Positions 6,559-21,973 of a stretch of DNA of 64,000 nt are shown here, in pieces (the stretch's first letter is position 1; the number at the start of each line of letters is the position of its first letter). The notes under the pieces were generated by a model that did not search any database, was not told where the DNA came from, and saw only the letters and a list, made by a program, of their open reading frames with translations. The translations under genes were made by a program, and so were the position numbers. The stretch is from the NCBI RefSeq assembly GCF_024584515.1, contig NZ_CP102173.1, positions 2,852,001-2,916,000 on the forward strand. The letters run 5' to 3'. Source of the DNA: Aeromicrobium wangtongii. GTDB lineage: Bacteria > Actinomycetota > Actinomycetes > Propionibacteriales > Nocardioidaceae.

Positions 6559-7188
6559 ATCACCACCGCAGCGAGCCTGGCATTTGCCGAGGACCACCAG
6601 AGCGAGGACGAGCATCTCGTTGCTGCACGACGACGCGCCGACGAGGTGGAGGTCACCCCGATCGGACCCGGGGCCGGCGCCGCACTGTCCTTCCTCGCCT
6701 CCGCGATCGGCGCCAAGTCGGTCGCCGAGATCGGCACCGGTACCGGTGTCTCGGGGCTGTGGCTGCTGCGCGGCATGCAGCCCGACGGCACGCTGACCTC
6801 GGTCGATCTCGAGGCCGAGCACCAGCGTCTCGCACGCGAGACGTTCACCGCGGCGGGGTACGCCCCGCAGCGCTTCCGGCTGATCGCCGGTGCAGGTCTG
6901 GACGTCATGCCGCGGCTGACCGATGCCGGCTACGACATGGTGTTCCTGGACGGCGACAAGGTCGAGTACGGCGAGTACCTCGACCAGGCGCTGCGCCTGG
7001 TCCGTCCCGGCGGCCTGATCGCCTTCGACAACGCCCTGTGGCACGACCGCGTCGCCGATCCGGCCCAGCGCGATGCCGAGACCACGGCCATCCGCGAGGT
7101 CATCCAGCGAGTCGCCGACGACGACCGCCTGCGCAGCATGCTCGTCCCCCTCGGCGACGGCCTCCTGGTCGCCCAGCTCCTCCCCTGA
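6559..7188 (+). CDS. O-methyltransferase (Rv1220c-like), apparent ATC start
   Basis: Motif I VAEIGTGTGVSGLWLL and the cation/acidic motif MVFLDGDKVEYGEYLD mark a class I O-methyltransferase of the type divergent from sigE in mycobacteria. The frame is open from 6526, but no ATG, GTG or TTG occurs before GTG 6646, which would leave only 180 residues and remove the conserved N-terminal helices (AFAEDHQSEDEHLVAARRRADEVE). GAGGAG (6547-6552) is ideally placed 6 bases before an ATC codon at 6559. Translation from there gives 209 residues, close to family length. The ATC start is therefore my choice, but a mutated ATG or a sequencing error cannot be excluded. The substrate is unknown. Confidence 0.8.
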   Translation: MTTAASLAFAEDHQSEDEHLVAARRRADEVEVTPIGPGAGAALSFLASAIGAKSVAEIGTGTGVSGLWLLRGMQPDGTLTSVDLEAEHQRLARETFTAAGYAPQRFRLIAGAGLDVMPRLTDAGYDMVFLDGDKVEYGEYLDQALRLVRPGGLIAFDNALWHDRVADPAQRDAETTAIREVIQRVADDDRLRSMLVPLGDGLLVAQLLP

Positions 7189-7189
7189 C

Positions 7190-7420
7190 GCTGACGCGTG
7201 GGTTACGCACGCTGACGCGTGGGTTATAGACGCCGACGCGTGGGTTGCGCACGCCGACGCGTGGGTTCTAGACGCCGACGCGTGGGTTGCGCACGCTGAC
7301 GCGGGGGTTACGCACGTGCGCAAGCCACGCCTCACCGTACGCAAGCCACGCGTCACCGTACGGAAGGCACGCGTCACCGTGCGCAAGGCACGCGTCAGCG
7401 TGCGCAAGCCACGCGTCAGC
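7190..7420. repeat. Array of eleven 21-bp units: six direct, five inverted
   Basis: Six tandem copies of a 21-bp unit begin at 7190, 7211, 7232, 7253, 7274 and 7295 (core GACGCGTGGGTT followed by a variable base and CGCAC or TAGAC). They are followed without a gap by five copies in inverse orientation beginning at 7316, 7337, 7358, 7379 and 7400 (core CACGCGTCA). The junction at 7315/7316 is the palindrome CGCACGTGCG. Inverted units differ from direct units mainly at two positions. Each unit carries an ACGCGT palindrome except the sixth direct unit (GCGGGG) and the first inverted unit (GCCTCA). The array fills the space between two convergent genes and has no spacers, so it is not CRISPR. It could fold as a giant hairpin or present sites at two-helical-turn spacing. 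Confidence 0.95.
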
Positions 7421-7431
7421 GACGGGGGTGG

Positions 7432-7791
7432 TCAGTCTTCTTGGGGCTCGTGCTCGAAGTGGCTGGACGAGCGGAAGCCCGCAGGACCGCGGACGACGGC
7501 CACGATCTCGCACGGCTCGATCAGGATCGGCGCAGAGCCGATGAGCTTCGAGCCGGGCGCGTCCGCAGCGCCCGGCTCGAAGGATGCCTGGAACGCCGCA
7601 CGCGCCTCGTCGGACACGAAGACATAGCTGCCCTCGAACCACTCGCCCTTGCGGACCCGCCAGGTCTTGAACCGCAGACCGTCCAGGCCGGCGAACTTGG
7701 CGTACGACTCGTCCTCGACATAGGCCCTCAAGGCCTTCAAGGTCCCCTTCGGTGCGTCGGCCAACGACCAGCGCACGGTCAGGCCGTACAT
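7432..7791 (-). CDS. Small dimeric alpha/beta-barrel (YdhR-like) protein
   Basis: 119 residues. The pattern KTWRVRKGEWFEGSYVFVSDEARAAFQASF (strand, loop, strand, helix) followed by IGSAPILIEPCEIVAVVRG suggests a ferredoxin-like dimeric alpha/beta barrel as in putative monooxygenases of the YdhR type. No catalytic residue can be assigned, and the enzyme role is a guess from fold class. Its ATG follows directly after the TAG stop of the DUF3117 gene without a gap, so the two are translated as a unit. Its 3' end lies 11 bases from the 21-bp repeat array. Confidence 0.65.
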   Translation of the reverse strand: MYGLTVRWSLADAPKGTLKALRAYVEDESYAKFAGLDGLRFKTWRVRKGEWFEGSYVFVSDEARAAFQASFEPGAADAPGSKLIGSAPILIEPCEIVAVVRGPAGFRSSSHFEHEPQED

Positions 7792-15907: not shown

Positions 15908-15925
15908 CCTGAGCCCCGGGGGTTG

Positions 15926-16015
15926 CGGTTTACCACGGTCCCTCCGCAAACGTCGTCCGCCCCAGGGAGATTTCCCTGGGGCGGACGCTGTTTGCGGAGG
16001 GACCGTGGTAAACCG
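15926..16015. terminator. 90-bp near-perfect inverted repeat between convergent mqo and purE
   Basis: Arms 15926-15968 and 15973-16015 are 43 bases each around a 4-base loop. They differ at only two adjacent positions (the CGTCGTCC / GGACGCTG step). It occupies almost all of the space between the mqo stop and the purE stop. It must act as a bidirectional terminator if transcribed. Its length and fidelity exceed what termination needs, so it could also be a mobile palindromic repeat that took over the role. Confidence 0.85.
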
Positions 16016-16024
16016 TCGGCTGGG

Positions 16025-16549
16025 TCAGCGGAAGCCGGCTCCGCCGGTCGGGGGGTTGCGGACCTTCTCGCCCTTGGCGCGGGCGGCGTCGGCGAGATCG
16101 GCCTGGAAGGCGATCATCCGCTCGGTCAGCGCGGCGTCGCCGGCGGCCAGGATGCGGACGGCCAGCAGCCCGGCGTTGCGGGCGTTGCCGATCGAGACCG
16201 TGGCCACGGGCACCCCTGCCGGCATCTGGACGATCGACAGCAGCGAGTCCATGCCGTCGAGGTGCTTGAGCGGCACCGGGACGCCGATGACCGGCAGCGG
16301 CGTGACGGCCGCGAGCATGCCCGGCAGGTGGGCTGCGCCGCCGGCGCCGGCGATGATGACCTCGAGGCCGCGGCCGTGCGCGTCACGCCCGTAGGCCAGC
16401 ATCTCGTCGGGCATCCGGTGCGCCGAGACGACATCGGCCTCGTAGGCGATGTCGAACTCCTTGAGCGCCGTCGCCGCCGCCTCCATCGTGGGCCAGTCGG
16501 AGTCCGAGCCCATCACGATGCCGACGCGGGGCGAAGCTGCTGAGGTCAT
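16025..16549 (-). CDS. purE: N5-carboxyaminoimidazole ribonucleotide mutase
   Basis: 174 residues from ATG 16549, overlapping the purK stop as ATGA. The class I PurE signatures are [27 protein letters not shown] (catalytic His) and [37 protein letters not shown] closes the fold. It interconverts N5-CAIR and CAIR in purine synthesis. The purK-purE pair and the PH-protein and birA genes behind it follow the mycobacterial Rv3275c-Rv3279c order. A longer frame to 16792 is spurious overlap with purK. Confidence 0.95.
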
Positions 16550-21635: not shown

Positions 21636-21973
21636 GCGACGAGACGGGCGTTTCGACAGGCTCAACGGACGCTTCGACAGGCTCAGCGGGCGAAAGCGGC
21701 TCAACGGGCGAAAGCGGCTCAACGGGCGATAGCGGTTCAACGGGCGCAGAGGGGCACACGCCGATCCTGCGCGTCGTCAAGGGCGACCTGACCCCCGAGG
21801 AGGTGGCGGCGCTGGTGGCCGTCGTCGCGGCCCGCAACGCCGCCGCGGCGAACGCCGCAGCGCGCAGCGCGAAGCCGCAGCCCCGCTCGGAGTGGGGCCA
21901 CCCGGCCCGTCAGGTGCGTCCGGCGCACGCCTTCGGCCCCGACCAGTGGCGCCGCTCGGCCTTCGGCCGCTGA
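21632..21973 (+). CDS. accE5: Acyl-CoA carboxylase epsilon subunit
   Basis: 113 residues from GTG 21632, overlapping the accD stop as GTGA. The C-terminal half carries the epsilon family core [28 protein letters not shown] and a Trp/Arg-rich tail ending WRRSAFGR. Epsilon proteins stabilise the AccA3-AccD5 holoenzyme. The N-terminal 40 residues are unusual: repeated STGS/ESGSTG units encoded by tandem 18- and 21-bp DNA repeats containing TTCGACAGGCTCA. They look like repeat expansion in a disordered leader rather than a conserved domain. Confidence 0.88.
21652..21743 (+). repeat. Tandem TTCGACAGGCTCA-type repeats within accE
   Basis: Two copies of TTCGACAGGCTCA (21652 and 21673, 21 bp apart) are followed by three 18-bp degenerate units with core AGCGGCTCAACGGGCGA (starting 21690, 21708 and 21726). 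All keep frame and encode STGS-type residues. The same core occurs in inverse orientation inside the dehydrogenase gene at 41691-41719, so this is a dispersed genomic repeat. Confidence 0.85.

Follow-up and report, generated by a model that had tools for sequence, protein, structure and literature searches.

Described repeats and transcript ends at gene borders

Among the closest described counterparts of the repeat arrays reported here are the REP, BIME and REPIN elements, which according to the accessible text of PMC3733652 and PMC3116915 are short intergenic repeats dispersed downstream of genes, form inverted pairs able to fold and occur as species-specific types. The accessible part of PMC3733652 makes no mention of Actinobacteria. 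In contrast to REP and REPIN elements, the arrays have tandem units in each arm, a fixed order of direct before inverted units and many sites shared between species, and no Y1 transposase was found in the A. wangtongii genome. A second likeness is with Streptomyces clavuligerus, where, in the accessible text of PMC8269248, 353 of 535 highly structured RNA 3' ends are without a U-tract, G+C-rich stem-loops follow stop codons and bidirectional ends are reported. The arrays differ from such ends in being a repeat family with a sequence common to the whole genome and up to 17 units in the longest arm (L050). The DNA uptake sequences of Neisseriaceae are likewise a short genome-wide motif with lineage dialects, as far as the accessible text of PMC3630211 describes them. 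However, these run to thousands of copies, whereas the array family comprises about 200 units in at least 18 arrays. Outside bacteria, the TTF-I 'Sal box' arrays that follow mammalian rRNA genes are tandem oriented sites past a gene end. The present arrays share this layout, but they are bacterial, adjoin many unrelated genes, and have convergent arms and no known binder. The array family is best classed as a variant of dispersed gene-end repeats, not a REPIN, and no description of such arrays was found in the literature covered, from which most subscription journals are missing.

Architecture of the window array

The window is a stretch of 64,000 nucleotides from the genome of Aeromicrobium wangtongii. 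It carries an array (7189-7421) of six direct and five inverted 21-bp units, flanked by the stop codons of two convergent genes and laid out as follows:

6646..7188, + strand: O-methyltransferase gene (PF01596, E 1.1e-35), whose TGA at 7186-7188 abuts the first unit without a gap
7189..7314, + strand: left arm, six direct 21-bp units, consensus CGCTGACGCGTGGGTTNCGCA
7310..7321, no strand: inner gap, 12 nt between the facing TT and AA, containing the palindrome CGCACGTGCG (7311-7320)
7317..7421, - strand: right arm, five inverted 21-bp units
7432..7791, - strand: convergent gene of 119 aa with no Pfam match, its stop 10 nt from the right arm

Direct units start at 7189, 7210, 7231, 7252, 7273 and 7294 and inverted units at 7317, 7338, 7359, 7380 and 7401, the last ending at 7421. 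A preliminary description had reported this 6-forward/5-reverse arrangement, a palindrome at the switch point and ACGCGT in most units (9 of 11), all of which are confirmed, and had remarked that there are more repeats than a terminator needs, which is supported for this array. Its strict 21-bp register holds within both arms, but is not universal: two related species (G034 and G008) have 22-bp units, with 22 bp in 49 of 49 within-arm spacings, which rules it out as a general rule. Similarly, the proposal that the inverted set differs from the direct set at the same two positions holds for one of them, C standing for the third G of GTGGGTT in all five inverted units, but the second G differs in only two of the five (7359 and 7380).

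The array is not a product of chance, because TRF scores it at 167/213 (direct) and 159 (inverted) and because the A. wangtongii genome has 83 forward and 70 reverse occurrences of the paired-unit pattern, against 0 and 0 when it is read backwards. The 12-mer with up to two mismatches is by itself not enriched in the window (16 matches against a shuffle mean of 12.4), so the 21-bp spacing is the feature that stands out. An assembly artefact is unlikely, since the genome was assembled into a single 3.69-Mb contig and the orthologous site of G064 (L106) has 3+2 units with the same sequence. A coding repeat was also considered and rejected: reading frames are open through the array, but the 22-bp units of relatives would break a repeated frame.

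A dispersed family at gene ends

The genome holds at least 18 array loci (that of the window and 17 others) with at least 194 units, which settles in favour of a dispersed element the choice that had been posed between this and local slippage only. One further stretch (L056) has no array. Two arms are present in 16 of the 18 loci found, the direct arm on the left and the inverted arm on the right in all 16; L041 consists of an inverted arm only and L049 of a direct arm only. Higher-order 63-bp repeats occur in L050 and L047, and one overlapping unit of L052 was dropped from the unit comparison.

Two loci are interrupted. About 1.0 kb separates the arms of L048, where a 315-aa gene with no Pfam match lies between them (L048:3079-4026); inserts of about 1 kb or longer separate the arms at this site in six genomes. 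A 1.1-kb insert breaks the right arm of L045 after its first unit; it carries a nitrilase-like gene (PF00795, L045:3117-4229) and is absent from the orthologous sites L204, L261 and L229.

The arrays mostly adjoin stop codons of unrelated housekeeping genes. Flanking genes in A. wangtongii encode RelA/SpoT, PheT, glycine dehydrogenase, a UvrD/PcrA helicase, undecaprenyl diphosphate synthase, PhoH, PurS and others, including what is presumably a fumarase, a name assigned from its sequence. A scan of 30 flanking proteins showed no shared function, and two of them were without a Pfam match. By crude gene calls in five genomes, the stop codon of a likely gene lies no more than 120 nt away for 98 of 127 arms, at a median of 7.5 nt. 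Both arms are also present at three loci whose flanking genes are codirectional (L039, L042 and L055); at L039 the purS start codon follows about 20 nt past the array, with TAGGAT, possibly its -10 box, between them.

One origin to be weighed is that of REP/BIME-like selfish palindromic repeats which spread between gene ends and were later expanded in tandem. Dispersal, gene-end position, inverted pairs and species-specific sequence all match REP elements as the accessible text of PMC3733652 describes them, and the inner segments of L039 and L053, read by eye, look like copies of one another in opposite orientation. However, the Y1 transposase (RAYT) profile PF01797 has no match in the A. wangtongii genome, having matched in 5 of 14 control genomes, so the family is not a standard REPIN system. 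Moreover, many array sites are common to several species, and plasmids and phages gave no array match at E 1e-5. This origin is considered quite improbable. The inverted hairpin pair of REPIN/GTAG-REP elements does have a counterpart in the two-armed loci, and the GTAG tag is absent from the consensus unit CGCTGACGCGTGGGTTGCGCA. In comparison with CGTC-REPs, the units contain GACG (CGTC on the other strand); the A. wangtongii unit is no clear palindrome, and by eye those of G030 come close to one. Two pattern matches in viral contigs proved to be a coding repeat unrelated to the arrays, and no relatives of the O-methyltransferase were confirmed in viral contigs.

Orthologous sites and unit dialects

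When one genome of each of 84,980 species was searched for the exact own-type pattern, 15 stretches were found, all in two Aeromicrobium metagenome-assembled genomes, records near A. wangtongii possibly having been left out of the set. BLAST and orthology showed arrays in further Aeromicrobium genomes, with units of the following types:

A. wangtongii: consensus unit CGCTGACGCGTGGGTTGCGCA
G012: unit like CGCTGACGCGCGGCTCCTGTC (L107)
G030: unit like CGCTGACGGGAGACTCCCGCC (L208)
G024 and G028: unit GCTGACGGGTCACTT
G069: unit GCTGACGAGAGGGTT
G067: unit GCTGACGAGAGCGTT and variants
G003: unit GCTGAGGGGGTACTT

Most outer unit edges read CGCTGA or a close variant, and the unit middles differ between genomes. 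Flank alignments with manual grouping gave 23 sites with an array in at least two of seven genomes. Other species of Aeromicrobium have arrays at orthologous sites, mostly with a unit dialect of their own and a period of 21 or 22 bp. The preliminary description had envisaged an ordinary hairpin at the site of the window array in relatives. Such hairpins are seen in some, but G064 and G012 have long arrays there and G061 a short one (2+2), those of G012 and G061 using other unit sequences than A. wangtongii.

An unbiased comparison of genome and site was obtained from two sites picked by protein orthology, downstream of fumarase and of PheT. Arrays were present at the fumarase site in 14 of the best 30 of 49 genomes and at the PheT site in 12 of 29 readable loci (30 taken, one unreadable), with none at the latter in G069 and G028. 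All 11 genomes with arrays at both sites were used, array ends being trimmed by pattern and, in G015, by hand. Sharing of 7-mers was 0.386 within a genome, against 0.112 and 0.120 between orthologous arrays and 0.121 between different sites of different genomes; none of 50,000 permutations, which ignore the relatedness of the genomes, reached the within-genome value. An array's partner in its own genome ranked first in 7 of the 11 genomes, second in G061 and third in G034 and G064. The clear exception is G015, with a partner sharing of 0.00 (rank 9 of 11) and two unrelated unit types, of 21 and 22 bp, at the fumarase and PheT sites (L269, L387). Unit sequence is thus tied more to the genome than to the site. 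As relatives have arrays at the same places but mostly with a unit version of their own, some process keeps the units of one genome alike.

Among arrays found by similarity, and in a set biased for that reason, 109 of 131 were nearest to an array of their own genome and 124 of 131 to one of their own dialect group. In five genomes the identity of units between species is independent of site (0.781 at the same site, 0.774 at other sites) because their unit cores are alike. Dialects do not simply follow a two-gene tree, in which G000 stands apart from G064 and G013, and this tree, with its oddly divergent G008 PheT, was not leaned on. The G008 protein (L396) is 77% identical to PheT of A. wangtongii, that of its relative G034 being 87% identical; gene exchange is a possible cause of the divergence.

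Evolution of arms and units

Arms were compared in five genomes (68 loci), with 483 units kept and 4 of 487 dropped as inconsistent. Unit identity is 84-85% within one arm, 77% between opposite arms of one array and 79% between different arrays of one genome. In 34 arrays of three genomes, with inner gaps of no more than 40 and without three loci whose inner units were unclear, units facing each other at matching distances from the centre had an identity of 0.771, compared with 0.789 for arms of different arrays, and 1998 of 2000 permutations were at least as high. The arm identities and this permutation test bear out the earlier suggestion that each half has been homogenised separately. As opposed arms are no closer than arms of other arrays, exchange operates inside each arm, and the two arms of one locus are not kept matched. 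Covariation between arms was looked for by permutation in the 34 arrays and not found, and there was none in the inner segments, where 734 and 2789 of 5000 permutations were at or above the segment's own value.

The gene-proximal unit is closest to the genome consensus (identity 0.929), and identity declines towards the inner units to 0.83. With the same three unclear loci left out, the outer unit scored above the average of the other units in 101 of 117 arms, level with it in 7 and below it in 9. The likeness of units across a genome would come from recombination or gene conversion that copies them from locus to locus, selection being strongest on the unit next to the gene. Bacterial intergenic repeats that stay in place across species while their sequence tracks the genome are a clear instance of concerted evolution among dispersed non-coding sequences.

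A simpler account is purely local slippage of chance hairpins, with neither function nor exchange between loci. Within-arm homogenisation and the 63-bp higher-order repeats do show slippage or unequal exchange inside arms. However, arrays of the same genome are more alike than orthologous arrays, as the 7-mer test established, which contradicts an origin by slippage only, and conservation is highest at the edge next to the gene, which is not what free drift of that edge would give. This account is therefore hardly credible.

Folding, arm spacing and a possible role at 3' ends

The window array folds to -169.4 kcal/mol (z -10.1) on one strand and -183 (z -13.1) on the other, and three other whole arrays fold with z from -7.6 to -12.5. 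Ten lone arms showed no folding beyond chance (z -1.75 to +1.91), and one site has kept arms with no partner close by in six genomes (L048, L209, L221, L247, L264 and L232/L235). A simple scan of 6900-7700 found no terminator consisting of a G+C-rich hairpin and a T-run, and four Rfam matches were all far below the gathering score and all to microRNA models. Among arrayless relatives, some have unrelated plain hairpins at array sites and others no clear hairpin; at the fumarase site of G013, just the outer ends are present, folded back as a short hairpin. A cruciform, like a protein-binding array or a terminator, is a candidate role of the window array.

There is about an even chance that the window array belongs to a dispersed family of convergent, bidirectional 3'-end elements of Aeromicrobium with units that undergo tandem multiplication and concerted evolution. 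In such a family, arms would directly follow stop codons, in many cases with convergent genes on the two sides, and a two-armed array transcribed from either side would give a long G+C-rich stem-loop without a U-tract, which might end transcription or protect the mRNA 3' end in both directions. Units would multiply in tandem and stay alike through copying between loci by recombination or gene conversion. The observed basis of this proposal is the dispersal, position and arm order of the arrays, their orthologous sites, homogenisation per arm and genome-linked unit sequences. Stable folding without a U-tract, the plain hairpins of some relatives, the long hairpins at two other convergent junctions of the window and the U-less ends of S. 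clavuligerus together favour such an element, and the presence of both arms at the codirectional loci L039, L042 and L055 fits the need for a hairpin. Counting against it are arms that are not co-adapted, lone unfolded arms, relatives without a hairpin, the lack of a U-tract and the two dialects of G015. If the arrays are terminators, then terminators can evolve as a genome-wide repeat family.

Arms with no partner close by, the failure of lone arms to fold beyond chance and the absence of co-adaptation between arms speak instead for recognition of the unit itself. A sequence-specific DNA-binding protein could read the unit, so that tandem oriented sites after each gene form a polar roadblock to RNA polymerase coming from that side; sites and reader would then change together, giving one dialect per genome. 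Such a roadblock would act in the manner of the oriented terminator sites behind rRNA genes, without being one of these arrays. This is on balance unlikely, but it is a serious rival because lone, unstructured arms are kept in several genomes. In all two-armed loci of the five genomes (4 of 487 units dropped) the units face the gene on their own side in one sense, and the best-conserved unit is the gene-proximal one, as a roadblock would lead one to expect. On the other hand, a candidate reader protein is so far absent, and the codirectional loci still have two arms.

The spacing of the arms bears on the same question. The distance between the facing TT and AA is 11-12, 21-23 or 32-33 nt in most arrays, and the best period of 38 inner-gap values is 10.5 (R 0.81; reached in 0 of 2000 uniform draws). 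Orthologous sites were merged for this purpose, and gaps above 50 nt, three misread loci and one of two homologous segments were excluded; for L052, one of the three misread loci, a value of 11 read by eye was used. A step near 10.5 bp would suit a roadblock, but this length is half a unit as well as one helical turn, and either may account for it. Moreover, genomes with 22-bp units fit poorly (R 0.52 at 10.5, with 4 of 12 gaps being 4 nt), and a 22-bp period counts against strict helical phasing. A fuller version, in which each species has one trans-acting reader or copying machinery, the arrays are polar roadblocks with arms in helical register, units are added or selected gene-proximally and the dialect shifts jointly, is decidedly unlikely. 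If the arrays are read by a protein, they would represent a new way of marking gene ends. The many parallel loci of each genome make both the 3'-end element and the protein-read site testable.

Other repeats and hairpins in the window

Besides the array junction, ten convergent junctions were called in the window (crude gene calls), and two of these have long perfect hairpins with no T-run. A very long, near-perfect hairpin without a T-run (GGTTTACCACGGTCCCTCCGCAAAC... and its inverse) occupies a convergent junction at 15908-16030 and is outside the array family, and a perfect hairpin (GAGACCTGATGCATC.../...GATGCATCAGGTCTC) lies at 1086-1145 in a convergent junction of 60 nt. Additionally, repeats with TTCGACAGGCTCA are found at 21644-21746, and a similar inverted pair, TTCGACAAGCTCA / TGAGCCTGTCGAA, is present at the G069 orthologue of the array site (L121); repeats of this type are perhaps another dispersed family.
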